From contig CADAES010000007.1 of assembly GCA_902786975.1 (NCBI GenBank), positions 1 to 64,000 on the forward strand: a DNA stretch of 64,000 nucleotides, in the 5' to 3' direction. The stretch is from an uncultured Ruminococcus sp. GTDB lineage: Bacteria > Bacillota > Clostridia > Oscillospirales > Ruminococcaceae. A model generated the notes under the pieces. That model had not been told where the DNA came from, ran no database searches, and saw only the letters and a list, made by a program, of their open reading frames with translations. Both the position numbers and the translations under genes were made by a program. This document shows positions 46,169-60,841 of the stretch, piece by piece (within the stretch, counting starts at the first letter, position 1; the number at the start of each line of letters is the position of its first letter).

Positions 46169-46176
46169 TACACCTA

Positions 46177-46214
46177 CCCCCTTGCTCTCAAATCGCAGAC
46201 GCAAGGGGATATTC
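46177..46214 (+). terminator. possible terminator of the DHHW gene
   Basis: CCCCTTGC and GCAAGGGG (46201-46208) form an 8-bp stem with a 15-nt loop. The following T-tract is weak. Confidence 0.5.
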
Positions 46215-46316
46215 TTGCTTTTCCGATGTGTTTGGGACCGCAAATGACAAAATATTCAATATAATGTTCAAAACATTCCCCTTTTCGTGCAAATTATACT
46301 AAAAGCACGTTATTGC

Positions 46317-46345
46317 TTGACAAATCGAGCTTATTTTGATATAAT
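46317..46345 (+). promoter_or_regulatory. promoter of the polysaccharide operon
   Basis: TTGACA (46317-46322) and TATAAT (46340-46345) are 17 bp apart, a perfect consensus promoter, and the only strong promoter I see for the next 14 kb. Confidence 0.92.
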
Positions 46346-46351
46346 GGTTTA

Positions 46352-46556
46352 GTAAGATTGCCTATTGTGGCCTGTATTCTGACAAGTCGAAGGTCGGTTT
46401 GCAGAAAACGGCGGAACAAGGCGGTTTGATATTACCATAGGCTGCCTGTCAGCTATGATGATCTTTAGCAAAATACAGATTTTTTGAGACGATCAACAGC
46501 GAGTAAACAAAAAATGTTAGAAACTGAATTTCAAACATATTCAAGGAGAAGTTGCC
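46352..46556 (+). promoter_or_regulatory. ~200-nt leader of the polysaccharide operon
   Basis: No ORF with a ribosome-binding site is seen. CCTAT..TGG (46361-46370) can pair with CCATAGG (46435-46441), and CTGACA (46379-46384) with TGTCAG (46447-46452). These two pairings cross, so a pseudoknot or two alternative folds are possible. A local GCTG/CAGC hairpin competes. Long polysaccharide operons often use leader RNAs for processive antitermination. Confidence 0.4.
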
Positions 46557-47462
46557 ATGAAAGGAATCATCCTCGCCGGCGGCGCCGGTACCAGACTTTA
46601 TCCACTGACACTCGTGACCTCAAAACAGCTTTTGCCTGTTTACAATAAACCAATGATATTCTATCCGCTGAGTACGCTGATGCTGGCGCATATCCGGGAG
46701 GTGCTGATAATCTCAACTCCCGAGGATACCCCACGTATAAAGGAGCTTCTCGGCACGGGCGCATCGCTCGGAATGGAGCTTTCGTATGCCGTCCAGAAAA
46801 AGCCGGAAGGGCTTGCACAGGCTTTCACCATCGGCAAGAAATTCATCGGCGACGACAGCTGCGCCATGATACTGGGCGACAACATCTTTTACGGAAACGG
46901 ACTCGGCTTCAAGCTTTCTTCTGCCGTTGAATCGGCGGAAAAAGGCAATGCCACCATTTTCGGCTACTATGTTGAAGACCCCAAGAGATTCGGCATAATG
47001 GAATTTGAAAAGAATCCCAAGTCCAGAGATGACTGTGTTAAGGTGATCTCGGTCGAGGAAAAGCCGAAAAACCCAAAGAGCAACTATGCTATCGTAGGCT
47101 TGTATTTCTACCCCAAAGGGGTAAGCAAAATGGCTACAAAGGTCAAGCCCAGCGAGCGTGGTGAGCTTGAGATAACCTCCCTCAACGAGATGTATCTCAA
47201 ACAGGGCAAGCTCAACGCACAGCTTCTCGGACGTGGCTTTACCTGGATGGACTGCGGAACATTTTACAGCTTGAGAAAGGCGACCAATTTCGTCTGCATG
47301 ATCGAGCAGTACCAGGGCATGTCCATTTCCGCACCCGAGGAGATAGCCTATCGCTTCGGCTGGATAAACAAGGACAAGCTTGCCGAAAGCGCTGAAAGAT
47401 ACGGAAAATCGCCTTACGGCGACCACCTCAAGGCAGTCCTCGAGGACAGAATAGTTCTTTAA
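46557..47462 (+). CDS. rfbA: glucose-1-phosphate thymidylyltransferase
   Basis: A 301-residue nucleotidyltransferase that makes dTDP-glucose from glucose-1-phosphate and dTTP. Signatures are the N-terminal GIILAGGAGTRLYPLT, SKQLLPVYNKPMIFYPLS, ILGDNIFYG and WMDCGTFYSL. CAAGGAG precedes the ATG. It is first in the operon and supplies RfbB. Glucose-1-phosphate could come from the phosphoglucomutase encoded at 12.6 kb. Confidence 0.98.
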   Translation: MKGIILAGGAGTRLYPLTLVTSKQLLPVYNKPMIFYPLSTLMLAHIREVLIISTPEDTPRIKELLGTGASLGMELSYAVQKKPEGLAQAFTIGKKFIGDDSCAMILGDNIFYGNGLGFKLSSAVESAEKGNATIFGYYVEDPKRFGIMEFEKNPKSRDDCVKVISVEEKPKNPKSNYAIVGLYFYPKGVSKMATKVKPSERGELEITSLNEMYLKQGKLNAQLLGRGFTWMDCGTFYSLRKATNFVCMIEQYQGMSISAPEEIAYRFGWINKDKLAESAERYGKSPYGDHLKAVLEDRIVL

Positions 47463-47477
47463 GGAAGTATTGTTTTT

Positions 47478-48512
47478 ATGACTATTATCGTTACCGGCGG
47501 TGCCGGATTTATTGGAAGCAATTTTGTCTTCCATATGCTCGGGAAATACCCCGATTACCGCATTATCTGCCTGGACAAGCTGACCTATGCGGGCAACCTT
47601 TCAACACTTGCGCCTGTTATGGACAATCCGAATTTCAGATTCGTAAAGGCTGATATCTGCGACCGTGAGGCTGTTAACAAGCTTTTCGAGGAGGAGCACC
47701 CGGATATCGTGGTGAACTTCGCTGCAGAGAGCCACGTTGACAGGTCCATCGAAGACCCGGGCATCTTTTTGCAGACAAACATAATGGGTACACAGACGCT
47801 TATGGACGCCTGCCGCAAGTACGGCATCCAGCGTTATCATCAGGTTTCAACTGACGAGGTCTACGGCGATCTTCCGCTTGACAGACCAGACCTGTTCTTC
47901 ACCGAGGAAACTCCGATACACACGAGCAGCCCGTACAGTAGCTCAAAAGCCGGCGCAGACCTACTGGTGCTTGCTTACCACAGGACTTACGGTTTGCCTG
48001 TAACAATCTCACGTTGCAGCAACAACTACGGTCCGTATCACTTCCCCGAGAAGCTGATACCGCTGATGATCGCAAATTGTCTGAATGATAAGCCGCTTCC
48101 TGTTTACGGCGAGGGCTTGAATGTCAGAGATTGGCTGTATGTTGAGGATCACTGCAAGGCTATCGATCTTGTTATCCACAAGGGCAGAGTCGGCGAGGTG
48201 TACAACATCGGCGGCCACAACGAGATGAGAAACATCGACATCGTCAAGCTGATATGCAAAGAGCTCGGCAAGCCCGAGAGCCTTATTACGCACGTTACGG
48301 ACAGAAAGGGACACGATATGCGTTACGCTATCGACCCGACAAAGATACACAATGAGCTTGGCTGGCTGCCCGAAACAAAGTTTGAGGACGGCATTAAGAA
48401 AACGATAAAATGGTACCTCGACAACCGTGAGTGGTGGGAAACTATCATCAGCGGCGAGTACCAGAACTACTACGATAAAATGTACGGCAGCAGAGAGGCT
48501 GTCAGCGTATAA
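47478..48512 (+). CDS. rfbB: dTDP-glucose 4,6-dehydratase
   Basis: A 344-residue short-chain dehydrogenase that converts dTDP-glucose to dTDP-4-keto-6-deoxyglucose. It has NAD+-binding TGGAGFIGSNF, the catalytic STDEVYG triad segment, YSSSKAGADL (the YxxxK pair) and SNNYGPYHFPEKLIP. It follows rfbA by 15 nt. rfbC and rfbD, needed for rhamnose, are absent from the operon, so the keto sugar is probably passed to the aminotransferase that follows. Confidence 0.98.
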   Translation: MTIIVTGGAGFIGSNFVFHMLGKYPDYRIICLDKLTYAGNLSTLAPVMDNPNFRFVKADICDREAVNKLFEEEHPDIVVNFAAESHVDRSIEDPGIFLQTNIMGTQTLMDACRKYGIQRYHQVSTDEVYGDLPLDRPDLFFTEETPIHTSSPYSSSKAGADLLVLAYHRTYGLPVTISRCSNNYGPYHFPEKLIPLMIANCLNDKPLPVYGEGLNVRDWLYVEDHCKAIDLVIHKGRVGEVYNIGGHNEMRNIDIVKLICKELGKPESLITHVTDRKGHDMRYAIDPTKIHNELGWLPETKFEDGIKKTIKWYLDNREWWETIISGEYQNYYDKMYGSREAVSV

Positions 48513-48545
48513 CACCTTCAAATAAATCTGTTAGGAGAAAGTTGT

Positions 48546-49646
48546 ATGTCAATATATGTGACACGTTCTTCAATGCCGGAGCTTGAAGATTATATAAACG
48601 AAATAAAGCCCATATTCGAAAGCCATCATCTCACAAACATGGGACCTGTATATAAAAAATTCCAGAAGCAGCTCATAGAATATCTTGGAGTTAAAGAGCT
48701 GTCTTTGTTTGTGAATGGACATATGGCTCTTGAAATGGCTATTCATGCAATGGGACTTCGCTGCAGCGACGGAGAGGTCATTACCACTCCGTTTACGTTT
48801 GTTTCGACAACTCACGCCATAGTCAGAAATGGTTTGAAACCAGTTTTCTGTGATATTGACCCTGCCACTTATACTATTGATGTAACAAAGATAGAAAGCC
48901 TTATCACAGACAAAACTGTTGCGATTGTTCCTGTACACGTTTACGGAAATCTCTGTGACGTTGAAGCGATAGACGAGATAGCTAAAAAACACGATCTGAA
49001 AGTCATCTACGATGCGGCTCACGCTTTCGGTGTAAAGTACAAGGGCGTTGGCATCGGCAATTTCGGTGACGCTTCGATGTTCAGCTTCCATGCGACAAAA
49101 GTCTTTAATACGATAGAGGGCGGTGCGATAGCTTTCCACGACAAGAAGTACTGTGAAAAGCTGCACGAGCTCAAGAATTTCGGTATCCACGAACAGGACG
49201 ATGTCCTGGGTATCGGCGGCAACGCCAAGCTCGACGAGTTCAGAGCTGCTATGGGAATATGCAATCTCAGAAGAATAGGCGAATGCATAGCTTCGAGAAA
49301 GGCAGTTTACGAACATTACCGCAGCAGGCTCAGCGGTGTTGAGGGTGTGAAACTCAGCAGTCCGCAAAAGGACGTCGAGCCGAACTACGCTTATTTCCCG
49401 GTTTATTTTGACAAGCAAAAATTCGGCAAGAGCCGTGACAACGTTTTTGAGCAGCTAAAAGCTGAAGACATTTTTGCAAGAAAGTATTTCTATCCTGCAA
49501 TAAACGAACTGAGCTGCTATAAGGGGCAGTTCCCACTTGACACGCCTAACGCTCACAAAGCATCAATGGGTATTCTGACTCTGCCTATGTATGAAGGCTT
49601 GAAGCTTGAAGACGTCGACAGGATATGCGATATTATTCTGAAATAA
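48546..49646 (+). CDS. DegT/DnrJ/EryC1 sugar aminotransferase
   Basis: A 366-residue PLP enzyme that aminates nucleotide-linked keto sugars. The Schiff-base lysine lies in FSFHATKVFNT; VYDAAHAFG-type (IYDAAHAFGVKY) and GGNAKLDEFRAAMG segments are conserved. Next to RfbA/RfbB it should act on dTDP-4-keto-6-deoxyglucose, giving Qui4N or Fuc4N, or on a 3-keto isomer, though no isomerase is present. TTAGGAG precedes the ATG. C3 or C4 specificity cannot be read from sequence. Confidence 0.94.
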   Translation: MSIYVTRSSMPELEDYINEIKPIFESHHLTNMGPVYKKFQKQLIEYLGVKELSLFVNGHMALEMAIHAMGLRCSDGEVITTPFTFVSTTHAIVRNGLKPVFCDIDPATYTIDVTKIESLITDKTVAIVPVHVYGNLCDVEAIDEIAKKHDLKVIYDAAHAFGVKYKGVGIGNFGDASMFSFHATKVFNTIEGGAIAFHDKKYCEKLHELKNFGIHEQDDVLGIGGNAKLDEFRAAMGICNLRRIGECIASRKAVYEHYRSRLSGVEGVKLSSPQKDVEPNYAYFPVYFDKQKFGKSRDNVFEQLKAEDIFARKYFYPAINELSCYKGQFPLDTPNAHKASMGILTLPMYEGLKLEDVDRICDIILK

Positions 49647-49666
49647 CAGGAAAAGAGAGATCTCAA

Positions 49667-50869
49667 ATGAAAAAGATCCTGCTCCTGGGCGGCTCTGCTC
49701 AGCAGGTAATTGCGATAGAGACCGCCAAGAGACTGGGCTATTATACGGTGCTGTGCGATTATCTTCCCGATAATCCCGGACAGTACAAAGCAGATAAGTT
49801 TTATCTGGTCAGCACGACTGACAAGGATGCCGTGCTTGAAGTTGCAAAAAAAGAAAACATCGACGGTGTGCTTGCGTACGCTTCCGACCCTGCCGCTCCT
49901 ACTGCGGCTTATGTTGCTGAACAGCTTGGACTTCCCGGAAACCCCTACGAATCTGTCTGCACGCTCTGCGACAAGGGCAGGTTCCGTGACTTTCTCAAAG
50001 CAAACGGCTTTGCAACACCTTATGCAAACCATTACAGCGACCTTGAAAGTCTGAAGGCAGATACCGCAAAATTCAAACTGCCCGTGATAATCAAGCCTGT
50101 CGATTCTTCCGGCAGCAAGGGCGCAACTGTGCTGGACAGCTGGGATAATGTCGGCGAGGCTTTTGAATATGCTATCTCGTTTTCAAGAGCAAAACGTGTT
50201 GTCGCAGAAGAATTCATTGTAAAAAAACACCCCTACCTTATCGGAGGAGATATCTTTGTTTCCGACGGTAAAGTGATACTCTGGGGTTTGCTGAACTGTC
50301 ACCGTGACGAGAATGTCAACCCGCTTGTACCGGTCGGGAAAAGCTACCCGCCAAAGCTCGGCACGGACGATATGGAAAATGTGAAAAATGTGCTCCGGGA
50401 GCTGGTGGACAAGCTTCATATCTCCTCAGGCGCTATGAATGTTGAATTGATCATCGACCGCAGCGACAGGGTCTATCTTATAGATATCGGTCCACGAAGC
50501 GGCGGCAATATGATCCCCGATCTTCTGGGGTATATCTTTAATACCGACATTGTTGAACAGACAGTGCTCTCAGCTATGGGTCAGAACACCAACAAGACTT
50601 ATGACAAGGGCGAGTGCTTTTACGCAACTCACAATCTTCATTCAGACAGAAACGGTATCTTCTCTGATGTTTTATTCAGCGAGGAGATCGAGAAATATAT
50701 CATTAAAAAATGCATTTACAAAAAGCCCGGCGACGAGGCGGAGTATTTCGATTACGCCACAAAAGCCCTGGGCATCGTATTTATGAAGTTTGACTCCGAA
50801 GAAGAAATGGACGATATACTTGATAATATCAGCGAGAGTATAACGATAAAGCTTTCCGAACAGCGGTAA
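49667..50869 (+). CDS. ATP-grasp ligase (first)
   Basis: A 400-residue ATP-grasp protein of the carbamoyl-phosphate-synthetase/PurK-like group. The N-terminal Rossmann-like preATP-grasp domain begins MKKILLLGGSAQQVIAIE. ATP-binding PVIIKPVDSSGSKGATVL and metal-binding YLIDIGPRSGGNMIPDL follow. Such enzymes join a carboxylate (usually an amino acid) to an amine via an acyl phosphate. Directly after a sugar aminotransferase, the plausible acceptor is the new amino group of the dTDP-sugar. The ATG at 49667 follows AGAGAG; it starts 20 nt after the aminotransferase stop. Confidence 0.85.
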   Translation: MKKILLLGGSAQQVIAIETAKRLGYYTVLCDYLPDNPGQYKADKFYLVSTTDKDAVLEVAKKENIDGVLAYASDPAAPTAAYVAEQLGLPGNPYESVCTLCDKGRFRDFLKANGFATPYANHYSDLESLKADTAKFKLPVIIKPVDSSGSKGATVLDSWDNVGEAFEYAISFSRAKRVVAEEFIVKKHPYLIGGDIFVSDGKVILWGLLNCHRDENVNPLVPVGKSYPPKLGTDDMENVKNVLRELVDKLHISSGAMNVELIIDRSDRVYLIDIGPRSGGNMIPDLLGYIFNTDIVEQTVLSAMGQNTNKTYDKGECFYATHNLHSDRNGIFSDVLFSEEIEKYIIKKCIYKKPGDEAEYFDYATKALGIVFMKFDSEEEMDDILDNISESITIKLSEQR

Positions 50870-50884
50870 GACCGCACACAAATT

Positions 50885-51032
50885 CAATAAGGGGCATCGC
50901 CCCGACATTCAAGCACGACAAACCAAGCTTCGCTTGCTACAGCGTTAGGTCCTTAGGGTTTCGGTGGGAGATTTATTCTCACCACCGAAAGACTAAGATG
51001 ACCGCCGCCTAAGAGGCTGGGGACATAGGTCG
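50885..51032. repeat. palindromic intergenic element inside the operon
   Basis: The spacer between the two ATP-grasp genes contains a GGGGC-ATC-GCCCC hairpin (50891-50903), a CAAGC/GCTTG-type hairpin near 50924-50937, and a long hairpin from CTTAG (50952) to CTAAG (50997). The long hairpin has 14 of 16 paired positions plus an inner GAGA/TCTC stem around TTTAT. A GCC/GGC hairpin follows (51004-51017). There is no T-run. It resembles a small mobile palindromic unit. Confidence 0.65.
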
Positions 51033-51054
51033 TGATTATAAAGGTGAAAGAAAA

Positions 51055-52308
51055 ATGAGTGAAAAAAAATCTCTTCTTGTTCTCGGCGGAAAGCCGATAG
51101 GTTCGATAAACGTTGTTGAGCAAGCAAAAGCTATGGGACTTTATACCATAGTTACCGACTACCTTGAGCCACAAAGATCTCCCGCAAAGCTGATCGCAGA
51201 CGAAGCATGGGATATCAGCACAGCCGATATTGAAAAGCTTGAACAGATGATAAAGAAGAATAATGTCAATGGCATCTTCACCGGCGTTCACGAATTCAAT
51301 ATCAGAAAAATGATGACCCTTTGCGAGCATCTCAGTCTTCCCTGCTACTGCAGCACGCAGCAGTGGAACAGACTCGAAAACAAAGAGAATTTCAAAAAGC
51401 TATGTGCGGAGTACGGCTTGCCGATAACTCCTTACTATGACTACGAATACATTAGGTCTACCGGCGATACGAGCAACGTGGAATTCCCTGTTATAACAAA
51501 GCCCGTGGACGGAAGCGGCAGCAGGGGCTTTTCGGTATGCAACAATGCCGAAGAACTCATGACTGCGATCGAAAAAGCACTTTCGTTCTCCGAAACCGGC
51601 AAGGTCCTGATCGAAAAATGTATGGACTACAAGACCAGCGTTATCATCAATTATACGGTGATAAACAAGCAGGTTTATTTCAGCGGTATCTCGGACAAGT
51701 ATTCCGCAAAAATAACCGAGACCGGCGGTCCGATAATGTCATTCCAGTATTACCCCTCGCTTTACGAAAAGACTTATCTCGAAACTCTTGACGACAAAGC
51801 TAAGAAGATGATCGAAAGTCTTGGATTTGATGCGGGCGTTGTTTGGATCGAAGCATTCAACGACAATGGCAAATTCACATTCAACGAGCTCGGACTGAGG
51901 TTCGGAGGTTCACTAACATATCTTCCCGTTCAGCATTTCTATGGTTTCAGTCAGCTCGATGTGCTTATGGAATATGCAGTCAAAGGCTGTAATTCACAGT
52001 ATTCGCCCAAAAGGATATGCTCGGACGATGTATACTGCATCTTCCCTGTTCACGTGAAGCCGGGCGTTATCTCCAAAATAATCGGCATGGACAAGCTTGA
52101 AGCAAGTAAAGAACTTGTTAAGGTCGTTCCGGTGCATTACATCGGTGATACTATTGAAATGTGGAACTCGGCTCAGCAGGTATTTGCATATATCCATTAC
52201 GTCTGCACAAGCAGGGAAAAAGCAAAGGAATTCGCAAAGTGGATAATTAACACTCTGCGCATTGAAGATGAAAACGGAGAACAGATGCTGTTTAATCTTT
52301 ATATCTGA
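51055..52308 (+). CDS. ATP-grasp ligase (second)
   Basis: A 417-residue ATP-grasp protein, distantly related to the preceding one. The preATP-grasp domain starts KSLLVLGGKPIGSINVVEQAK. ATP-binding PVITKPVDGSGSRGFSV and the metal site FTFNELGLRFGGSLTYLP are intact. The donor carboxylate and acceptor are unknown; a second aminoacyl addition extending the first is one option. AAGGTG precedes the ATG at short distance. It is separated from the first ligase gene by a palindromic element but stays in the same transcription unit. Confidence 0.84.
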   Translation: MSEKKSLLVLGGKPIGSINVVEQAKAMGLYTIVTDYLEPQRSPAKLIADEAWDISTADIEKLEQMIKKNNVNGIFTGVHEFNIRKMMTLCEHLSLPCYCSTQQWNRLENKENFKKLCAEYGLPITPYYDYEYIRSTGDTSNVEFPVITKPVDGSGSRGFSVCNNAEELMTAIEKALSFSETGKVLIEKCMDYKTSVIINYTVINKQVYFSGISDKYSAKITETGGPIMSFQYYPSLYEKTYLETLDDKAKKMIESLGFDAGVVWIEAFNDNGKFTFNELGLRFGGSLTYLPVQHFYGFSQLDVLMEYAVKGCNSQYSPKRICSDDVYCIFPVHVKPGVISKIIGMDKLEASKELVKVVPVHYIGDTIEMWNSAQQVFAYIHYVCTSREKAKEFAKWIINTLRIEDENGEQMLFNLYI

Positions 52309-52356
52309 TAAAAAGTGTACTGAACACTTTTATTACATTGATTGGTAGGGATATCT

Positions 52357-53370
52357 TTGAAAACTAATATTACCGTTAAGCTGATATCAAGTGATGATAT
52401 ACGAGAAAGCGGATGCATAGATCACAATAATATAATGTCTGTTGTAGAGCAATGTCTTATAGATTATAAGAACAACGAGTTTATTCTTCCGGAAAAAATA
52501 TCTCAGATATTTGATGATGAAACTCAAAACAGAATTAACTGTATGCCTGCTACATTGAAAAAGCACAATATCTGCGGCGTGAAATGGGTATCTGTTTTCC
52601 CCGGCAATCCGATGGGATTCGGCTGCAGGAACGTATCAGGTGTCGTTATTCTTTCAGAGCTCAAAAAGGGATATCCTTTTTCAATAGTTGACGGCACTTT
52701 GATAACAGCACTAAGAACAGCTTGTATCGGAGCCGTTGCAGCAAAGTATCTTGCTAACAGAAACAGTAAGGTATACTGTGCGATCGGCACCGGCGAACAA
52801 GGCAGGATGCATTTCAAAGCAATAAAGTCTGTATACAGTCAGATAGATACATGCTATGTAGCATCACACACAAACGCCGAAGAACAGGCTTTTATTGAAG
52901 ATCTGTCTGCTGATTATCCGGATGTCAGCTTTATCGAATGCGGCGGAGATTACAGGAAAGCATCTAAAGATGCTGATATCATTGTAACAGCAGTAAGCTG
53001 TCAGGAACCGCTGCTTAAAGCAGATTCGATAAAGAAAGGAGCATTTTACTGCCACGTCGGAGGCTTAGAAGATGAATACGAAGTGCCCCTGATGGCCGAC
53101 AAGATCGTATGCGATCAGTGGCAAGCAGTAAAGCACAGGACTCAGACTATCAGCAGACTTTATAAGCAGGGTAAGCTGAAGGACGAAGATATATATGCCG
53201 ACATCGCAGATATAATCTCAGGCGAAAAGCCGGGAAGAGAAAACGAAAGTGAGTTTATTTATTTTAACTCTGTTGGTCTTGCTTTCATTGATGTCTCTGT
53301 AGCATATGAGTTTTATAAGAAGGCTGTAGAGGCAGGCAGATTCACAGAATGGACAATGCTTGACAACTGA
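52357..53370 (+). CDS. ornithine cyclodeaminase/mu-crystallin family protein
   Basis: A 337-residue NAD(P)-dependent enzyme. The Rossmann motif is YCAIGTGEQGRMHFKAI. Family segments are CGVKWVSVFPGNP, SGVVILSEL and GTLITALRTACIGAVAAKYLA. Relatives include ornithine cyclodeaminase, alanine dehydrogenase, ketimine reductase and SbnB (diaminopropionate synthesis). Here it may supply or modify the amino acid used by the adjacent ATP-grasp ligases. The start is TTG at 52357 after TAGGGA; another TTG at 52342 is possible. No SbnA-like partner is present. Confidence 0.88.
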   Translation: MKTNITVKLISSDDIRESGCIDHNNIMSVVEQCLIDYKNNEFILPEKISQIFDDETQNRINCMPATLKKHNICGVKWVSVFPGNPMGFGCRNVSGVVILSELKKGYPFSIVDGTLITALRTACIGAVAAKYLANRNSKVYCAIGTGEQGRMHFKAIKSVYSQIDTCYVASHTNAEEQAFIEDLSADYPDVSFIECGGDYRKASKDADIIVTAVSCQEPLLKADSIKKGAFYCHVGGLEDEYEVPLMADKIVCDQWQAVKHRTQTISRLYKQGKLKDEDIYADIADIISGEKPGRENESEFIYFNSVGLAFIDVSVAYEFYKKAVEAGRFTEWTMLDN

Positions 53371-53401
53371 TCAATCGATTGTTTTGGAGATAGATGAACT
53401 G

Positions 53402-54259
53402 ATGAGTACAATTAACACAACTGTTGATAAAGAATTCGTTGATCTGCTGGAATTCAGCAGCCCCTATTCACGACCTGAACTATACAAGGCGATCGCCGAC
53501 GAGATAAGGAAAGATAATATTGAGCAGGTCAACAGAATCAGCGAGCAGGTCAAGCCTAAGAGTTCGATTTATTCTAAATACATAAAACGGCTGCTCGATA
53601 TTATAATATCTCTTATCGCACTGATAATTACGTTCCCTTTCAATTTCATTATTTTTATAATTACGATCTTCGATGTGGGCTTCCCGATCTTCTTCAAGCA
53701 GAAAAGGATCGGCAGGAACGGAAAGCCGTTTAAGCTCGTAAAATTCAGGAATATGCGCAATGACTGTGATGAAAACGGGAATCTTCTTCCTGCTTCAAAA
53801 CGAGTTACAAAATTCGGGCGCTTCATAAGACGCACCTCTTTGGATGAGCTCCTTAATTTCTGGAGCATTTTCAAAGGAGATATGTCTCTTATCGGTCCAA
53901 GACCGCTGGAACTGGTGTACTCACAAAGATACAGCAAACGCCATGAGCAGCGTAATGCTGTCAGACCCGGTCTGGAATGCCCGATCATCAAGACACTTGA
54001 TCATAATCTCACATGGTGCGATCAGTTTGAAAACGACATCTACTATGTTGAAAACGTAAGCTTCGGTCTTGATGTCAAGATGATATTCCTGCTTGTTAAG
54101 ATGGTCTTTAACTCCAAAAGCAATTCTATGAGAGGTGCCTCTGCAAGGGGCGGCTTTTTGGGCTATAACCCCGATGGCACAAGCATCAATGCAAAGAATG
54201 TGCCGGCGAAATATGTTGAACGTGCATTGGAAAAATTGTCACAGAAAAAAGCAGGTTGA
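53402..54259 (+). CDS. undecaprenyl-phosphate sugar phosphotransferase
   Basis: A 285-residue initiating (priming) sugar transferase of the bacterial sugar transferase family, moving a sugar-1-phosphate onto undecaprenyl phosphate. A ~60-residue N-terminal region is followed by one membrane helix (LLDIIISLIALIITFPFNFIIFI) and the catalytic domain with FFKQKRIGRNGKPF, LVKFRNMRND, RRTSLDELLNFW and GDMSLIGPRP. It lacks the four-TM N-terminal part of WbaP/WcaJ and so is the short form. The ATG at 53402 follows GGAGA at 12 nt; an in-frame TTG at 53360 would overlap the previous gene. Confidence 0.94.
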   Translation: MSTINTTVDKEFVDLLEFSSPYSRPELYKAIADEIRKDNIEQVNRISEQVKPKSSIYSKYIKRLLDIIISLIALIITFPFNFIIFIITIFDVGFPIFFKQKRIGRNGKPFKLVKFRNMRNDCDENGNLLPASKRVTKFGRFIRRTSLDELLNFWSIFKGDMSLIGPRPLELVYSQRYSKRHEQRNAVRPGLECPIIKTLDHNLTWCDQFENDIYYVENVSFGLDVKMIFLLVKMVFNSKSNSMRGASARGGFLGYNPDGTSINAKNVPAKYVERALEKLSQKKAG

Positions 54260-54297
54260 ACAATTATTCCATCAGTTCAGTTTACAAGGAGTCAGTT

Positions 54298-55500
54298 ATG
54301 AATAAAAGCGAGTTAATATCCGGTTTGCGAAGCCACTATCCAAAAATAGCACGCAAAAAGCTGGCAAAGGCAAGGCTTAACATAATAAAAAAATACAGGA
54401 TCTCACCGAAGGATGTAAAAATCGCTGAGGAAAGCGAAAACAACAAAGAACAAGCAGTCAGAAGATTTGAAAAAAAGCACGGTAAAAAGTATTCCTCCCT
54501 GGTAAAAGCCTCGGAAACAGTTATCCGCAACGCCCCTGAGTTCAAGGATCTGAGTGCTGATAAAAAAGAAAAGCTTATCTGCGATATGGTCTTCAAATAC
54601 ATTGCATATGGGTTTCAGCCGGATGAGTATCTGTGCTACGACCTTTTGGGTAAAACGCCAAAGCAATGCAGACAGTTTATCTCCGATACTGACAGGTACA
54701 GCATCGTTTACTCGATCAACGACATCTCTGATCAGCAGTGTTTTCTCAATAAGATCAAATGTTACACCAAATTCGGAGAGTATTACAAAAGAGATGCTGT
54801 TATAGTCAGCGGCTCGAAAGATTATGACAACTACTTGAAATTTGTTGAAAAACACAGTGAGTTCGTTCAGAAAAAAACCTGCGCTTCCCGAGGTCACGGA
54901 GTTGAACTGAAAAGCGTAGGTCAAAGCAGCGAAGCAAAACAGCAGTATTTCAATTCACTGATATCCAGCGGAAAATACTTGCTTGAAGAAAGAGTTGCTC
55001 AGGGCAAGCAGACAGCTGTCCTCAACCCTTCAAGCGTCAACACCATCCGATGCATCACCTTCAACACCAAGCATGGAGTAAAGGTAGCTTATACCTTTAT
55101 GAAGGTCGGGCGTGCGGGTTCTTTTGTTGATAACGGAGGTGCGGGCGGTATCCTTGTCGGTATAGATAAAGATACAGGTGTGCTTGACTCAAATGGCATT
55201 GACGAAAATAATGTTGTATATACCAAGCATCCCGACTCAGGCATCGTTTTTAAAGGCTATCAGCTTCCGGATTGGCAATCTATGCTGGATATGTGTATAG
55301 AAATGTCATCAAAAGCACCAACTGTTAAGTATATCGGCTGGGATGTAGCCTATTCTGATTCCGGCTGGGTGCTTATCGAAGGTAATATGGGACAGTTTAT
55401 AGGACCGCAGACTATTTATAAGATCGGAATAAAAAAGCAGGTTCAAGAGTATTTGAAAGATATGGAGCCGATCCCCAGAATTATTGCAAATAAAGAATAG
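54298..55500 (+). CDS. sugar-transfer-associated ATP-grasp protein (third)
   Basis: A 400-residue protein of the ATP-grasp family associated with sugar transfer (ATPgrasp_ST type). A basic coiled N-terminal part (1-95) precedes the ATP-grasp domain with FVQKKTCASRGHGVEL, LLEERVAQG, VNTIRCITFN, DNGGAGGILVGIDKDTG and WVLIEGNMGQF. Such proteins sit beside priming transferases in exopolysaccharide loci and are thought to attach amino-acid-like groups. Immediately after the priming transferase here, it fits that pattern. The ATG at 54298 follows AAGGAG. Confidence 0.9.
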   Translation: MNKSELISGLRSHYPKIARKKLAKARLNIIKKYRISPKDVKIAEESENNKEQAVRRFEKKHGKKYSSLVKASETVIRNAPEFKDLSADKKEKLICDMVFKYIAYGFQPDEYLCYDLLGKTPKQCRQFISDTDRYSIVYSINDISDQQCFLNKIKCYTKFGEYYKRDAVIVSGSKDYDNYLKFVEKHSEFVQKKTCASRGHGVELKSVGQSSEAKQQYFNSLISSGKYLLEERVAQGKQTAVLNPSSVNTIRCITFNTKHGVKVAYTFMKVGRAGSFVDNGGAGGILVGIDKDTGVLDSNGIDENNVVYTKHPDSGIVFKGYQLPDWQSMLDMCIEMSSKAPTVKYIGWDVAYSDSGWVLIEGNMGQFIGPQTIYKIGIKKQVQEYLKDMEPIPRIIANKE

Positions 55501-55594
55501 TCAGTTTCATTGTGACCGATCATATTATGATCTATGATAATATGCGATATGCAGAAGACTCTCTATCCTACGGTATAGTTTAGGAGGATTATCC

Positions 55595-56650
55595 GTGCCA
55601 AAGATTTCTATTGTTTCTCCGGTATACAAAACAGAAAAGTATATCAATAAAATGCTTGAAACGATCAGGACGCAGACATTTACCGATTTTGAGGTAATAT
55701 TTGTTGATGATGGCAGTACTGATAATTGTCCTCAGATCCTTGACGATTTTGCCAAGGAAGATAATAAGTTTAAAGTTATCCATCAAAAGAACAGCGGCGC
55801 TTCTGCTGCAAGGAACAATGGACTGGAGCACTGCAGCGGTGAATATGTTTATATTATAGATTCTGACGATTATTTGGAGAAAAATGCTCTTGAACTGTTG
55901 TGGGAAAACGCTCAAAAGACCTCAGCTGATATTATTTACGGCGATTACTATATTGAAGAATCAAACAGGAGCATATTAAAAAAGGTCTTTGACAGGGAGT
56001 TTTACACGGATAACAGTAATGATATCGATATAATCCAGAGTGCAGTTAATATCGGCGGTTCAGGGATCAATCTATCCAGCAAAAGTTTTGAACGTATAAA
56101 TGAATTTGGCGGCGCACCGTGGAGAGCTATGATCCGACGCAGTATCATATCTGATAATATGATCAGATACGATGAGTCCTTAAAGGGTCTGGGTGAGGAT
56201 ATTCTATTTATCCAGAATGTATATGAACACGTTAGCAGTGTTTCATATATTCAAAAACCTATTTATCATTATCGGATGCTAAATGATTCTTTATCTCATG
56301 GGTATAAAAAAGATCTGCTAAAAGGATTTGATCTGGTTTATGATAAAGAAGAACTATTTTTAAAGCAAAACAATAAAGGCAATAATCATTGGATAACATA
56401 TTATTATCGTATTATAAAATATATAAATCTTTCGCTAAAGTATTATTTTCAGAATAAGGGCAATACGTCCAGCGATACTGAACGGTTTAATGAATTCAAG
56501 CGCACTATGCGTTCTTATCCGTACAAAACGGCAATAAAAAGTGTTCCTCTTAAACTGATTTCAAGTAAGAACAACAAAATCAGCGTGTTATTATTAAAAA
56601 TGCATATGTACAGATTGTTTTGGATGTTAAAAAAACGTAAAAACAAATGA
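55595..56650 (+). CDS. GT2 family glycosyltransferase
   Basis: A 351-residue inverting glycosyltransferase with a GT-A fold. It has SIVSPVYKTEKYI at the start, the nucleotide-binding DDGS at 38-41 and the metal-binding DSDD at 89-92. GAPWRAMIRRS in the middle is typical of CPS GT2 enzymes. The start is GTG at 55595 behind TAGGAGG. It is the only glycosyltransferase in the operon besides the priming enzyme, so the repeat unit may be a disaccharide unless others act in trans. Base composition becomes clearly AT-rich from here. Confidence 0.94.
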   Translation: MPKISIVSPVYKTEKYINKMLETIRTQTFTDFEVIFVDDGSTDNCPQILDDFAKEDNKFKVIHQKNSGASAARNNGLEHCSGEYVYIIDSDDYLEKNALELLWENAQKTSADIIYGDYYIEESNRSILKKVFDREFYTDNSNDIDIIQSAVNIGGSGINLSSKSFERINEFGGAPWRAMIRRSIISDNMIRYDESLKGLGEDILFIQNVYEHVSSVSYIQKPIYHYRMLNDSLSHGYKKDLLKGFDLVYDKEELFLKQNNKGNNHWITYYYRIIKYINLSLKYYFQNKGNTSSDTERFNEFKRTMRSYPYKTAIKSVPLKLISSKNNKISVLLLKMHMYRLFWMLKKRKNK

Positions 56651-56712
56651 TATATAAGTATATCAGGATCTGACGTGTATACACGGAAAAAGAAGACAAA
56701 GGATAGATTTTC

Positions 56713-57930
56713 ATGGGAATCAAACTGAACAAAAACACTTGGTGGTACTTCCTTGTTGCAACTCTGTCTATATTGGGATGCTTTAACAACCAGATACTCT
56801 CTGATTTTCTGCCTCTGATCTCCGTCATTCAGCTGTCAACACGTGTTTTGGTTTTTGCCGCTTGTTTGTTCTATAGCATACTGGTAAACAGGAGTTTTAG
56901 CCGTCCCTTTATTATCTATTCATCATTAATCATGGTGTTCCTTCTCAGCGGCTTGTTCAACTCTTCCAACATCGTTTCATTATTCGGCAACCTTTCTTAT
57001 TCATTAACAATAGCCATGGTCCTCGAAGCATTCCGTAAGGATCAGCGTGCATTGTTGACTATTATGCGCATATGGAAATGGATCATTGTCTTATTACTTA
57101 TTATAGATATTATTACAGAGTTAGCATTCCCATCTGGCATGTATGAAAGCAGAGCTTATACTTTAAACTGGTTTTTAGGATATAAATCAGAGCGTGCTGT
57201 ATACACTTTACCATTGATCATTATGACAAGTTTCATTTCAGTAAAAACAAAAGGCCATATTACTTTAGAATCATATGGGATATTTGCTATTGTAATGCTT
57301 AACAGTATTCTCTCAAAAGGAACTGTAATGACATTTACTATGCTTGTACTTATTACTCTCATAGTAATATCGGATCTTCTATCCCGAACAAAAATGCAGC
57401 GTCTGAAAAAAGCGCTCCGTTTTATTATAGATTATAGGATCATTATTCCCGTTTATTCTATTTTTACAATAGCTTTATTGTTTTCAGAAAACAACTTTCT
57501 CGTGAAATTTATCTCAGATCTATTCAACAAGGACAATGGCATATCCTCAAGGGATGTTATTTGGGAAAAACTGCTTCACCTTCTGGATTCAAAAATGGTC
57601 CTCGGAACCGGATTTATGAGTCGTAATCAATACATTGGTATCTCTGGCTTCCCCGGAGGTTCAAATGCCCATAATGCAATACTTACCTTACTGGTAAACG
57701 GCGGTCTTATCGCCATTGCAATTTATATAGTTCTTCACGTAATTACTATCCACAAGAATAAAGGGACCGCATCAACTCCCCTTATTTTAGCAATTTATGC
57801 AAACCTTTTATTTGGAACAGTATCATCGATCATGGTTCTTTCTACATTCAGTATGCTGCCATTTTTTATTCTTGAAGATGAGAAAAAGCAACATTCTCCA
57901 AAGAAAGGATGTGTAAAACATAGGCCTTAA
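56713..57930 (+). CDS. Wzy-like polysaccharide polymerase / O-antigen ligase family
   Basis: A 405-residue membrane protein with roughly ten hydrophobic segments and a long loop near residues 270-325 (DLFNKDNGISSRDVIWEK, SNAHNAILTLLVNGG), the layout of the O-antigen ligase/polymerase superfamily. It should polymerise lipid-linked repeat units outside the membrane. Assignment rests on topology, the SRDVIWE and HNAILTLLVNGG signatures and position beside a Wzx flippase. Codon use is AT-rich. Confidence 0.85.
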   Translation: MGIKLNKNTWWYFLVATLSILGCFNNQILSDFLPLISVIQLSTRVLVFAACLFYSILVNRSFSRPFIIYSSLIMVFLLSGLFNSSNIVSLFGNLSYSLTIAMVLEAFRKDQRALLTIMRIWKWIIVLLLIIDIITELAFPSGMYESRAYTLNWFLGYKSERAVYTLPLIIMTSFISVKTKGHITLESYGIFAIVMLNSILSKGTVMTFTMLVLITLIVISDLLSRTKMQRLKKALRFIIDYRIIIPVYSIFTIALLFSENNFLVKFISDLFNKDNGISSRDVIWEKLLHLLDSKMVLGTGFMSRNQYIGISGFPGGSNAHNAILTLLVNGGLIAIAIYIVLHVITIHKNKGTASTPLILAIYANLLFGTVSSIMVLSTFSMLPFFILEDEKKQHSPKKGCVKHRP

Positions 57931-58768
57931 TGATAAAATAAACCGTTTAGTATTCCGAAATCGTATTCTTCTTTGCAAAAATAAAACCAGGCCCGGCAAA
58001 GTTTCCCTTGACTACTGGACTAAGAAAACAAATATTGGTGATACCCTTGGACCTGTGATTTTTAAGTGGATGCTAAAAAGGAAAAACCTAGCCCCGGACA
58101 GTCCTGCAAAAAAATCAGCGATCCTCATTACTGTCGGTTCTATTATCAGCTTAAATCATTATAACGCTGTCATCTGGGGCAGCGGCATACATACTCTTAC
58201 TTCACTGCTCAAAACGTATAGATGGCGTAAAATTGCGAAATTCGATGTGAGAGCTGTCAGAGGACCTATTACAAAACAGATCCTTGAAGCTGCCAATTAT
58301 GATTGCAGAAATGTTGCTTTTGGCGATCCAGCGATCCTTATGCCTTTGATATACCAACCTGAGGTAAAAGAAAAAAAGCATAATGTCTCAATAATAACAC
58401 ACTGGTATTTTGATAATACAGATAGTGAGATCATAGAATCCGGAGCAAATATCATAGATGTCAGCACCAGCGATTATAAGAGTTTTATCGATGAGATCGT
58501 TTCTTCAAAGCTAGTCATCTCTTCCTCACTGCATGGGATCATACTCGCTGAATCATATGGAATACCTGCAGTTTTTCTGAACAGGAACAACTGTATGAAA
58601 AAAGAATTGATAAAATACTATGATTGGTATTATTCTACGGGAAGGTACTCTGTCAAAATTGCATTATCTCTTGAAGAAGCAATGTCTATTACCCCGATGA
58701 GTATTCCAGATCTGTCAGACCTCAGAGAAAATCTGATCTCAGCTTTTCCATATGACCTATGGATATGA
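57920..58768 (+). CDS. polysaccharide pyruvyl transferase family protein, unusual start
   Basis: This enzyme family transfers pyruvate from PEP to sugars of surface polymers as ketals. Family marks are NIGDTLGPVIFKWML, VRAVRGPITKQIL, FGDPAILMPLIY and SSSLHGIILAESYGIPA. The first in-frame ATG/GTG/TTG is GTG at 58055, but that cuts the conserved N-terminal GDxLxP segment. The open frame extends back to a TAA at 57914 and encodes family-like sequence (VSLDYWTKKT). GAAAGGATG (57904-57912) lies upstream of an ATA codon at 57920, which overlaps the wzy stop. I therefore propose ATA initiation, or a lost ATG, giving about 282 residues. Confidence 0.75.
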   Translation: MGLNDKINRLVFRNRILLCKNKTRPGKVSLDYWTKKTNIGDTLGPVIFKWMLKRKNLAPDSPAKKSAILITVGSIISLNHYNAVIWGSGIHTLTSLLKTYRWRKIAKFDVRAVRGPITKQILEAANYDCRNVAFGDPAILMPLIYQPEVKEKKHNVSIITHWYFDNTDSEIIESGANIIDVSTSDYKSFIDEIVSSKLVISSSLHGIILAESYGIPAVFLNRNNCMKKELIKYYDWYYSTGRYSVKIALSLEEAMSITPMSIPDLSDLRENLISAFPYDLWI

Positions 58769-58813
58769 CTACTCTTGACAAAATAGCATAAATGCCTAAG
58801 AAAAGGAGCATCA

Positions 58814-60223
58814 ATGATGGATGCCAATAAGAAAAACAAGGCTTTGATTAAAGGGACCGGTATATATGCTATAGGTACTTTTGGAACCAAGATGCTATCC
58901 TTTATCATTGTTCCATTATATACATACTATATCGCAACAGAAGATATGGGCATATATGATATATTGCTGACAACAATTCAGCTTATTGCTCCTATTATCA
59001 CTATGCAGGTGTCAGATGCAGCGTACAGATATATTATCAGAAGTGATGGCGATCCTTCAATATATATCAGAAACACCATGCATATAATTGTTGTAAACTG
59101 TTCTATAGCATTTTGTCTGGTCTTTTTTGTTGATTATTTTCATTCCATCCCATACTGTACTTACTTTGCATTGCTCCTTGTATTAACACGTGTGATGGAC
59201 TCGATACAAAAACTGTTGAGAGCGTTAAAGAACCAAATACTGTTTGCTGTTTCCGGTATTATTTACAGTGTCGTATTCCTATCATTGAATATTATTCAGG
59301 TTTGTGTTTTTAAAAGAGGGATAAACGGTCTGTTTCTTAGTGGTGTTATTGCCGACTGTGTTGCAATAGCAGCGATATTCATTTTTGAACCAAGACTTCG
59401 TATCAATTACTTTAAGAAAACAGATTTTGCTATAGTAAAAAAATATTATAAGTTTTCAGTTCCTCTGGTTCCCAATTATCTAAACTGGTGGATAATGAAC
59501 TCATCTGACAGATATATCGTTGCAGCATTTCTTGGCAATTCAGCAAACGGTATACTTGCAATATCGCACAAATTTCCGACAGTCTTTCAAATGATACTGC
59601 ACCTGTTTACAACTTCCTGGCAGGATCTCTCTGTTGCGGATAAAGAATCTCAAAAAGGCGATTACAATTCAAAAGTATTCAGATTATTCTACAGATTAAC
59701 ATTCAGTTTTTTATGGGTTCTGATCCCAGCTACAAAGGTTTTCATATATCTTGTAATGAACAAATCCTATAAAGAAGGCTGTGACTATGTTGCATTCTAC
59801 TACATTGGCACTGTTTTTCAAAGCTTTTCTTCATTCTACGGTGTCGGATACTTGCGTAACCGCCAAACCGGGAAGGCATTTTCAACAAGTATTTATGGTG
59901 CAATAGTAAATGCTGTGATCAACCTTGCATTTATAAAGCTGATAGGTATTCAAGCTGCCGCTGTATCGACCTTTGTTGGATTCCTTGTAATGTGGCTTAT
60001 AAGAGAACACCAGAACCGTGAAGAGTTGAATATCAGAATAAACAAGAGAGAATTTGCAATAATGCTTGCTTTATCGGTCACCATTTCAGTAGTTTCTATA
60101 ATGCTCAAATGGACGTATAATCTGATTATATTTGCATTAGCATTAGTTATTTTCCTTTTAGTAAACAAAAAAGAAATAAAAATGATACTAAACAAGATAC
60201 GTCACAAAATAAAAAGAGCTTGA
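58814..60223 (+). CDS. Wzx-like flippase (polysaccharide transporter)
   Basis: A 469-residue multispanning protein of the MOP/PST family with about 14 membrane segments. It starts ALIKGTGIYAIGTFGTKMLSFIIVPLYTYYI, the typical flippase opening. NYLNWWIMNSSDRYIVAAFLG and the C-terminal paired helices also fit Wzx. It should flip the undecaprenyl-linked repeat unit to the outer face for polymerisation by Wzy. AAAAGGAG precedes the ATG. It is the last gene of the operon; a terminator follows 70 nt later. Confidence 0.93.
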   Translation: MMDANKKNKALIKGTGIYAIGTFGTKMLSFIIVPLYTYYIATEDMGIYDILLTTIQLIAPIITMQVSDAAYRYIIRSDGDPSIYIRNTMHIIVVNCSIAFCLVFFVDYFHSIPYCTYFALLLVLTRVMDSIQKLLRALKNQILFAVSGIIYSVVFLSLNIIQVCVFKRGINGLFLSGVIADCVAIAAIFIFEPRLRINYFKKTDFAIVKKYYKFSVPLVPNYLNWWIMNSSDRYIVAAFLGNSANGILAISHKFPTVFQMILHLFTTSWQDLSVADKESQKGDYNSKVFRLFYRLTFSFLWVLIPATKVFIYLVMNKSYKEGCDYVAFYYIGTVFQSFSSFYGVGYLRNRQTGKAFSTSIYGAIVNAVINLAFIKLIGIQAAAVSTFVGFLVMWLIREHQNREELNIRINKREFAIMLALSVTISVVSIMLKWTYNLIIFALALVIFLLVNKKEIKMILNKIRHKIKRA

Positions 60224-60292
60224 TATTTATAATATCATCCTGTGAGTCCCGTGCTTGTCAAACGGACAGAAAAATCTAATAGGGATAACCAA

Positions 60293-60330
60293 CAGCAGTC
60301 TGTACATATTTGTTCAGGCTGCTGTTTTTA
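60293..60330 (+). terminator. intrinsic terminator of the polysaccharide operon
   Basis: CAGCAGTCTG (60293-60302) and CAGGCTGCTG (60315-60324) form a 10-bp stem with one G-U pair, followed by T5. Its distal arm overlaps the end of the istB remnant on the other strand. Confidence 0.88.
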
Positions 60331-60841
60331 ACTGTTCAGTCCACTTTGAAAATGGCAAATTTGTCGTGACGATGGTGCTCTTTTTCTCGCTCCTGTCGGA
60401 TATTACCTGAAACAACAGCTCTGACTGATGCCGATTGAAGCTGATGTAGCTCAGTTCGTCAAGTATCAGCAGGTCTGCTCTCGCAATGGACTTCTGAAGC
60501 TTTTCCAGCTTGTAGGTATCCTGAGCCTCTGCAAGTTGTGTTGAAAGTGCTGCTGCATTCTTAAACAACACCTTGAAACCAGCACGGCAGGCTTTCATAC
60601 CCAGAGCGATAGACAGATGCGTTTTGCCGCGCCCCGGCGGACCTATCATGATAATACTCTGATGCCTTTTGATGAAGTCACAGCTTGCCAGTTCGCTGAT
60701 AAAGCTTGGCGAAATCGAAGGGTTCAGGCGATCCATCCGGAACTCGTCCAGCGTCTTCTCAAACGGAAATGCTGCGTTTTCAAGCCGTTTCTTCATCTGA
60801 TTTCCCTGACGATGTTCTGACTCTCGGCGCATCATTTCCAT
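60314..60841 (-). pseudogene. istB: truncated IstB, IS21-family transposition helper
   Basis: A 175-codon remnant of the IS21 AAA+ helper ATPase, which is normally about 250 residues. Walker A (IGPPGRGKTH), Walker B (LLILDELSYI) and VTTNLPFSKWTE are clear. The N-terminal ~50 residues are missing: an in-frame TAG lies 24 nt upstream of the first ATG. The C-terminal ~40 residues, including the RLTHH-type region, are also missing; the frame stops four codons after KWTEQ, inside the neighbouring terminator. No istA or terminal repeats are visible. It is a dead fragment left after recombination. Confidence 0.85.

Follow-up and report, generated by a model that had tools for sequence, protein, structure and literature searches.

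An operon of an uncultured Ruminococcus with two ATP-grasp ligases and an ornithine-cyclodeaminase-family enzyme: a candidate route to a doubly acylated amino sugar in a surface polysaccharide

What group might a surface-polysaccharide operon attach to its sugars when it encodes a sugar aminotransferase, two consecutive ATP-grasp ligases and an enzyme of the ornithine cyclodeaminase (OCD)/mu-crystallin family? Such an operon lies between positions 46,317 and 60,330 of a 64,000-nucleotide stretch of DNA from an uncultured Ruminococcus species (assembly GCA_902786975.1, contig CADAES010000007.1, positions 1 to 64,000; this whole stretch is called the window below). We refer to its first ligase as AG1, to its second as AG2 and to the OCD-family protein as the OCD enzyme. 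A first-pass annotation of the window proposed that a dTDP-4-amino sugar is made here, that AG1 joins an amino acid to its amine, that AG2 may extend this group, and that the OCD enzyme makes or modifies the amino acid. Comparison with related loci shows that AG1 and the DegT-family aminotransferase gene form a conserved pair, and the new finding is that OCD-family genes, along with a second protein of DegT-like fold that is common in these loci, follow AG2 rather than AG1.

The amino sugar itself is supported by its gene context. The first-pass annotation reported that rfbC and rfbD are missing from the operon, which holds and extends to the genome: RmlC (PF00908) had zero matches in the whole genome in a search that was positive in 11 of 14 control genomes, and RmlD had no match above its cut-off genome-wide, the best one (49.5 bits against a cut-off of 224) lying at RfbB itself. 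The assembly (2.37 Mb) is 90% complete, and these absences are therefore not final. With neither enzyme found above its cut-off, no route to dTDP-rhamnose is visible, and the amino sugar made by DegT, most likely the dTDP derivative of 4-amino-4,6-dideoxyglucose (Qui4N), is the probable outlet of the pathway. The DegT gene stands beside rfbA and rfbB, as a dTDP-Qui4N synthase of the DesI/VioA type would, and its best PDB sequence match is 2po3; its best NCBIfam match, TIGR04427 (DesI, 316.9 bits), falls under the cut-off of 650, and for this reason we infer its product, most likely dTDP-Qui4N, rather than assign it. DesI is a dTDP-4-dehydro-6-deoxyglucose aminotransferase. The 3,4-ketoisomerase family PF05523, which is required for 3-amino sugars, has no Pfam match among the operon's twelve proteins.

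AG1 is the constant member of the two ligases. Scanning a collection of species genomes with an alignment of AG1 yielded 357 confirmed relatives; the locus counts given here use the best 80 of these 357, with gene content scored by profiles built from the same loci. AG1 is above threshold as a frame of its own in 78 of the 80; in two loci a single uninterrupted open frame (L063:8450-11203 and L064:8528-11191) is a possible Wzx-AG1 fusion. DegT is present in 68 loci, a Wzx type in 53, AG2 in 48, and RfbA and RfbB in 35 each, and rarer companions are the priming transferase of the window's type (15), one type of GNAT acetyltransferase (8) and two OCD types (4 and 2). In every one of the 66 loci that have both AG1 and DegT the two genes are on the same strand, AG1 coming first in 40 and DegT in 26, at a median distance of about 1.3 kb and a maximum of 8.2 kb. 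The synteny that the first-pass annotation asked for is thus found for this pair, and the proposed tie between the first ATP-grasp protein and the amino sugar is supported by context. Record titles of the loci include Blautia, Ruminococcus, Faecalibacterium, Granulicatella, Bacteroides, Adlercreutzia and many metagenome bins, with some cultured strains. Within the family the trait is patchy, because AG1 relatives occur in 9 of 148 family-wide genomes (E 1e-30, the Ruminococcus genome itself counted) and only four reach at least 38% identity.

The genes between or beside AG1 and DegT vary from locus to locus. AG2 is one of them, and in many of its 48 loci it sits between AG1 and DegT; synteny therefore holds for AG2 as well, and its reading as a separate, exchangeable step is supported by context. 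We ran Pfam on 20 chosen proteins from this slot, and some of the remainder were assigned by BLAST cluster. GNAT acetyltransferases were identified by Pfam in L029, L033, L037 and L048, and a GNAT protein is the sole gene between AG1 and DegT in L029 and L037 (by Pfam) and in L038, L056 and L080 (by BLAST cluster), as expected if the amino acid added by AG1 is then N-acetylated. Other loci have an AMP-binding ligase (L083), another ATP-grasp protein (L027), a 2-hydroxyacid dehydrogenase with an MmgE/PrpD protein (L022), or an Octopine_DH protein (L021, by Pfam and adjoined by a weak GNAT match; L023, by BLAST cluster), and four have a second, more distant OCD type with an amino acid permease gene after it (L030 by Pfam; L031, L036 and L068 by BLAST cluster). 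These genes may be alternative ways of making and attaching a second acyl group. Some slot genes are not plainly acyl-related, among them SDR epimerase families (L024, L045, L061), ATPgrasp_ST (L040, L074), a helix-turn-helix protein (L036) and a beta-lactamase fold (L088); L062 has a weak hexapeptide match, and the slot protein of L034 has no family. A membrane protein of about 425 amino acids, by eye an anion-symporter-like permease, lies between AG2 and DegT in L064, L065, L072, L084 and L086.

A further companion, outside the named families, is a protein of about 314 amino acids, present in 54 of the 80 loci (for example L065:11204-12145), which we call the DegT-fold partner. Two examples had no Pfam match and one had no NCBIfam match, and PDB sequences gave no match to either a single sequence or a 44-sequence profile. 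Its predicted model (pLDDT 94.1) matches DegT-fold sugar aminotransferases at 11–16% identity, and K135 and D114, at the places expected of a pyridoxal-phosphate enzyme, are invariant in 44 aligned sequences (44 of the 45 that passed the length filter). The partner was not found in the window or in its genome, the genome search having had no positive control. A dispersed repeat in the window occupies the place between AG1 and AG2 where relatives often have this partner.

Gene presence was then mapped onto trees of AG1 and of AG2 for the 48 loci, the window included, that have exactly one AG1 and one AG2 and exceed 9 kb, a length limit that removed L077 alone. Pooled OCD-family presence (7 of 48 loci, two distant types) requires 7 changes on the AG1 tree, where all of 300 shuffles needed no more, and 2 changes on the AG2 tree, which none of 300 shuffles equalled. 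The DegT-fold partner (38 of 48) behaves in the same way, taking 8 changes on the AG1 tree (49 of 300 shuffles) as against 2 on that of AG2 (0 of 300), and a more careful AG2 tree gives the same 2 changes for each. GNAT presence follows neither tree (5 changes on both, with 55 and 62 of 300 shuffles needing no more), and priming-transferase presence clusters on the two trees alike (7 and 5 changes, with 0 of 300 for each). The OCD family and the DegT-fold partner therefore show a contrast between the AG1 and AG2 trees that not every slot gene shows. Both track AG2 and not AG1, most strongly for the distant OCD type, which on its own (4 loci) takes 4 changes on the AG1 tree and 1 on the AG2 tree (0 of 300). 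In a broader tree the AG2 proteins of the window, L054 and L133 fall into one group at 100% SH-aLRT support (Shimodaira–Hasegawa-like approximate likelihood-ratio test), and all three adjoin an OCD gene; the AG2 of L025 lies in another clade, together with those of the four loci with the distant OCD type. The proposed link between OCD enzymes and an ATP-grasp protein is supported by this context, the protein being the second ligase.

A pathway that would account for these genes can be set out, and we hold it tentatively, at a little short of even confidence: RfbA, RfbB, DegT, AG1, AG2 and the OCD enzyme would make an aminoacyl-Qui4N bearing a second, OCD-derived unit, which would be put into a repeat built by the Wzx/Wzy system. 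RfbA and RfbB would give dTDP-4-keto-6-deoxyglucose, and DegT would aminate it at C4, yielding dTDP-Qui4N or its C4 epimer. At the expense of ATP, AG1 would form an amide between the Qui4N amine and the carboxyl group of an amino acid, whose own free amine AG2 would acylate with a second acid. The OCD enzyme would supply this second acid by NAD(P)H-dependent imine reduction; the acid could be an opine, built from an amine plus an alpha-keto acid, or it could be an unusual amino acid. The priming transferase and the GT2 glycosyltransferase would place the decorated sugar in the repeat unit, which Wzx would flip and Wzy polymerise. We infer all substrates, the order of the steps and the position of the sugar in the repeat from the genes.

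A number of observations weigh against this pathway, and the first of them concern the amino sugar. DegT is not above threshold in 12 of the 80 AG1 loci, among which L028, L076, L077 and L079 are 3–11 kb long and L098, L099 and L100 are of full length. In an order-wide sample of 394 genomes searched at E 1e-120 there are 34 non-self DegT homologues, and all of their neighbourhoods were fetched, some of them clipped by contig ends; RfbA or RfbB lies near 22 of the 34, which speaks for the proposed sugar, but an ATP-grasp protein detected by the AG1 and AG2 profiles lies near only 13, AG1 near 6, AG2 near 6 and the DegT-fold partner near 3. From these counts the DegT enzyme is probably a general Qui4N-type synthase, with AG1 one of several routes by which its product is acylated.

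The OCD enzyme provides further counter-evidence, and with it the best surviving alternative, that it is an ordinary amino acid dehydrogenase or other general metabolic enzyme (supplying alanine, for example) with no product dedicated to AG2, which we regard as possible if on balance doubtful. The protein belongs to the OCD/SbnB/alanine dehydrogenase superfamily (PF02423) and is below every NCBIfam cut-off reported; its best PDB sequence match is 4m54, which we take to be SbnB, and a PDB alanine dehydrogenase among its closest solved relatives favours the general role. SbnB acts on an opine-like compound. The motif evidence points the other way, since the Asp of the GAD motif of that alanine dehydrogenase is missing from the window's enzyme, as is the Asp of the GGD motif of an annotated ornithine cyclodeaminase (VGGLEDEYEV in the window, VGGDCPGKTEL in the annotated Shinella ocd). 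The Asp of the GGDCPGK motif is catalytic in ornithine cyclodeaminase, and literal ornithine cyclodeaminase activity was rejected for its loss. SbnB-like diaminopropionate synthesis was likewise set aside: the protein scores 190.5 bits on TIGR03944 against a cut-off of 326.9, and no SbnA-like family occurs among the twelve genes, the rest of the genome not having been searched.

Where OCD genes lie bears on both explanations. The window's type adjoins AG2 in the window, in L054 and L025 among the 80 loci, and in L133, which came from a search with the OCD enzyme as query; the distant type adjoins AG2 in L030, L031, L036 and L068. The synteny expected for the OCD gene was thus found beside AG2, in few places for the window's own type. 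On the AG2 tree that type (3 loci) takes 2 changes as against 3 on the AG1 tree, a weak signal (15 of 300 shuffles) that suits a general enzyme, and the pooled signal comes mainly from the distant type; the agreement of pooled presence with the AG2 tree, but not with that of AG1, argues for a dedicated role. In a class-wide sample of 391 genomes none of 10 non-self OCD loci (E 1e-50) is beside AG2 (at L166 an ATP-grasp protein is matched weakly, at 54 bits, about 8 kb from the OCD gene, and the L168 contig is only 4 kb), as against one of two non-self loci in the order-wide sample of 394 genomes. The idea that this OCD enzyme is specific to ATP-grasp operons is rejected by the class-wide result, and the four AG2-adjacent enzymes of the window's type were not found as one clade in the tree. 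Homologues of about 50% identity lie instead with oligopeptide ABC transporter and regulator genes, as a general enzyme might: Pfam identifies an oligopeptide ABC transporter, a sensor kinase and a sigma-54 regulator near the OCD gene of L163, and L164, L165, L167 and L168 (to its contig end) resemble L163 in open reading frame (ORF) lengths. L166 has an M81 metallopeptidase next to its OCD gene, and L169 a protein without a family at the limit used. On an Acaryochloris plasmid that carries a 50%-identical OCD, where the annotation splits it into two ORFs, none of the 20 neighbouring features listed is a polysaccharide gene. With homologues mostly elsewhere and the AG2-adjacent ones not forming one clade, the metabolism of amines, amino acids or opines is the probable source from which the enzyme was recruited. 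In L170, L171 and L172 the OCD gene adjoins a gene that on L170 encodes an octopine dehydrogenase, with a TRAP transporter gene, and this pair is a possible opine operon. Such neighbours are compatible with an opine product, without being proof of one.

A rather unlikely alternative is that AG1 adds one amino acid and AG2 decorates another residue, such as a different amino sugar or a uronic acid, so that the polymer carries two single decorations. This would explain why ligases resembling AG2 are also seen where AG1 is missing or alongside DegT proteins of other types (L136, L139, L140, L144, L147), and why AG2 and OCD genes stand among glycosyltransferases in L133, where neither AG1 nor DegT is present on the 13.5-kb stretch, a locus that counts against the two-ligase pathway. 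It accounts less readily for the frequency of AG2 in AG1 loci and its many positions between AG1 and DegT, and several known Qui4N substituents are two-unit chains (available text of PMC10609480).

The case for amide ligases comes from the proteins themselves. AG1 and AG2 are 26% identical over most of their length, and both have ATP-grasp domains by Pfam. PDB sequences matched by AG1 include 4dim (E 4e-28) and the L-amino acid ligase 3vot (E 1.4e-14), and the predicted model of AG2 (pLDDT 92.8) has the ATP-grasp fold, with 4dim and then 3vot as closest folds. The L-amino acid ligases BL00235 (3vot), RizA (4wd3) and BacD (3vmm) have this fold and the active-site motif in common with them, but are at most 18% identical over the fold alignment, and they make free dipeptides. 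A further point against aminoacylation is that the AG2 fold is nearly as similar to PurT and biotin carboxylases, chains of which are among its matches, as to amino acid ligases. That these proteins formylate, carboxylate or carbamoylate the sugar in the manner of PurT or carbamoyl-phosphate synthase, with no aminoacylation, is nevertheless very improbable, since PurT-type NCBIfam models give 72 bits on AG1 and 61 on AG2, far under cut-offs of 339 and more, the C-terminal domain LAL_C2 of L-amino acid ligases is weakly matched by the two ligases (scores of 19.8 and 26.6 bits, under the 29.4 cut-off), and the DIGPRSGG motif of AG1 aligns with EVGARIGG of 3vot.

The two-ligase pathway has chemical precedents. 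The available text of PMC10609480 describes Qui4N carrying N-acetylglycyl, N-acetyl-D-aspartyl, N-acetyl-L-allothreonyl, N-(3-hydroxybutyryl)-D-alanyl and alanopine groups, and that of PMC3210612 N-acetyl-D-alanyl on Qui4N. Aminoacyl-Qui4N is found in the O-antigens of S. dysenteriae D7, E. coli O123, P. alcalifaciens O35 and V. cholerae O43, where the amino acid is often capped by a second acyl group, an opine (alanopine) in O35; unlike the organism studied here these hosts are Gram-negative, and the acylating genes are not named in the available text (PMC10609480). The nearest experimental precedent is C. difficile R20291, in which mutants of an ATP-grasp gene and of an adjacent ornithine cyclodeaminase gene each lose the terminal peptidylamido-sugar; these genes adjoin FemAB-like and FdtB-like genes, and the authors left the precise roles of the products open (available text of PMC5207246). 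A DegT aminotransferase, an ATP-grasp protein (PF13535) and an OCD-family gene stand side by side at CDR20291_0244-0247 as they do in the window, the C. difficile ligase and OCD proteins being CDR20291_0245 and CDR20291_0246. In C. difficile, however, the first acylation is proposed to fall to a FemAB-like protein, and 3-amino-3,6-dideoxygalactose (Fuc3N) is the sugar that decorates the type B flagellin, whereas the window has AG1 and a Wzx/Wzy cluster, and no flagellin gene is among the operon's twelve. This likeness is one of the family names given in the paper, which also counts against the pathway.

The C. difficile cap is described as a taurine-Ala-Gly unit on Fuc3N in which the nitrogen of Ala is alkylated, and its authors read their OCD homologue as an alanine dehydrogenase, in keeping with a general role for the enzyme (available text of PMC5207245). 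By analogy with the window, taurine and Ala sharing one nitrogen would be tauropine, an opine; an OCD-family imine reductase would make it from taurine and pyruvate, and the ATP-grasp ligase of C. difficile would couple it. The reported cap composition, C4H10NO3S, fits a fragment of a tauropine-type unit by arithmetic, and the C. difficile system is in this way compatible with an opine reading. The wider proposal, in which AG1 is constant and second-acyl cassettes are exchangeable, the OCD enzyme acts as an opine synthase whose product goes to AG2, and the C. difficile cap is tauropine, is in our view rather unlikely. Among the literature matches listed, no paper assigns a function to these ATP-grasp ligases and none treats both tauropine and difficile.

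The operon as a whole (Table 1) is a plus-strand block of twelve genes at 46557-60223, whose families, as first annotated, were borne out by the ORF list and by Pfam and NCBIfam scans of the proteins. PF02397, PF01943 and PF04932 are all above their cut-offs in one operon, as in a Wzx/Wzy-dependent surface polysaccharide cluster. Genes overlap at three junctions (DegT/AG1, OCD/priming transferase and priming transferase/ATPgrasp_ST), and the OCD start codon is uncertain, the first in-frame start being the TTG at 52342. The strong promoter claimed upstream is confirmed: a scan of both strands gave 55 sites, against 35.6 (standard deviation 7.8) scoring at least 9 in shuffles, and the runner-up scores 11. 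The single terminator is also upheld by its hairpin (-21.9 kcal/mol, z -6.5, equalled by 0 of 200 shuffles) with UUUUU after it; a pattern scan with a loop limit of 8 missed it, and folding found it. The 185 bp between the AG1 and AG2 genes are mostly the dispersed repeat (about 160 bp), which has 32 BLAST matches in the genome, self included and some being pieces of one copy, several at contig ends; Rfam has no family above its gathering score for it. GC content drops along the operon (46001-60000) from 0.475 to about 0.35-0.37. Just past the terminator, at 60314-60841 on the minus strand, is a gene for an IstB-like ATPase of 175 amino acids, whose match begins at position 36 of a 238-position profile, so that the gene may be a fragment.

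Table 1. The operon and its control elements, in window coordinates
Feature	Position	Strand	Evidence
Extended -10 promoter, TTGACA-17-TATAAT	46317..46345	+	consensus match 12/12, TG ahead of -10
RfbA/RmlA, glucose-1-phosphate thymidylyltransferase	46557..47462	+	TIGR01207 412.5 bits, cut-off 360.65
RfbB/RmlB, dTDP-glucose 4,6-dehydratase	47478..48512	+	TIGR01181 504.1 bits, cut-off 365.1
DegT sugar aminotransferase, probable dTDP-Qui4N synthase	48546..49646	+	PF01041 330.6 bits
AG1, predicted ATP-grasp amide ligase (constant member)	49625..50869	+	ATP-grasp Pfam families; overlaps DegT gene
Dispersed structured repeat, AG1/AG2 gap	50883..51040	+	BLAST against own genome; fold z -4.6 of gap
AG2, predicted second ATP-grasp amide ligase (variable member)	51055..52308	+	Pfam; model pLDDT 92.8
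OCD/mu-crystallin family enzyme, probable NAD(P)-dependent imine reductase (amino acid/opine dehydrogenase)	52342..53370	+	PF02423 183 bits
Priming phosphoglycosyl transferase	53360..54259	+	PF02397 172 bits
Sugar-transfer-associated ATP-grasp (ATPgrasp_ST)	54256..55500	+	PF14397 154.5 bits
GT2 glycosyltransferase	55595..56650	+	PF00535 126 bits
Wzy-type polymerase	56713..57930	+	PF04932 35.6 bits, cut-off 31.7
Polysaccharide pyruvyl transferase family protein	58055..58768	+	PF04230 63.4 bits; open frame back to 57932
Wzx-type flippase	58814..60223	+	PF01943 61.3 bits
Intrinsic terminator hairpin, then U5	60291..60326	+	folding

The first-pass annotation was thus right in outline as to the amino sugar, the ligases and the OCD link. 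It mentions neither the DegT-fold partner, which is usual in related loci but missing here, nor the C. difficile system. Its disaccharide repeat unit is unsupported, counting glycosyltransferases being a weak argument, and so is its pyruvylated polymer, for which there is membership of PF04230 and a CsaB model score of 26 bits against a cut-off of 213.

Capping of the Gram-negative Qui4N and of the C. difficile flagellin sugar by amino-acid-type groups is already known, and the chemistry of amino acid and opine substituents on the surface sugars of bacteria is well documented; in the available text of the sources cited, the enzymes that attach them are unnamed except through the C. difficile mutants (PMC5207246). 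The operon and its relatives suggest a rule for passing from genes to structure, in which a constant ligase is joined by an exchangeable second ligase and by a dedicated enzyme that makes the acid, and the same logic yields a concrete reading of the C. difficile cap. The ligases and their helper enzymes recur in other combinations across many, mostly gut, bacteria.

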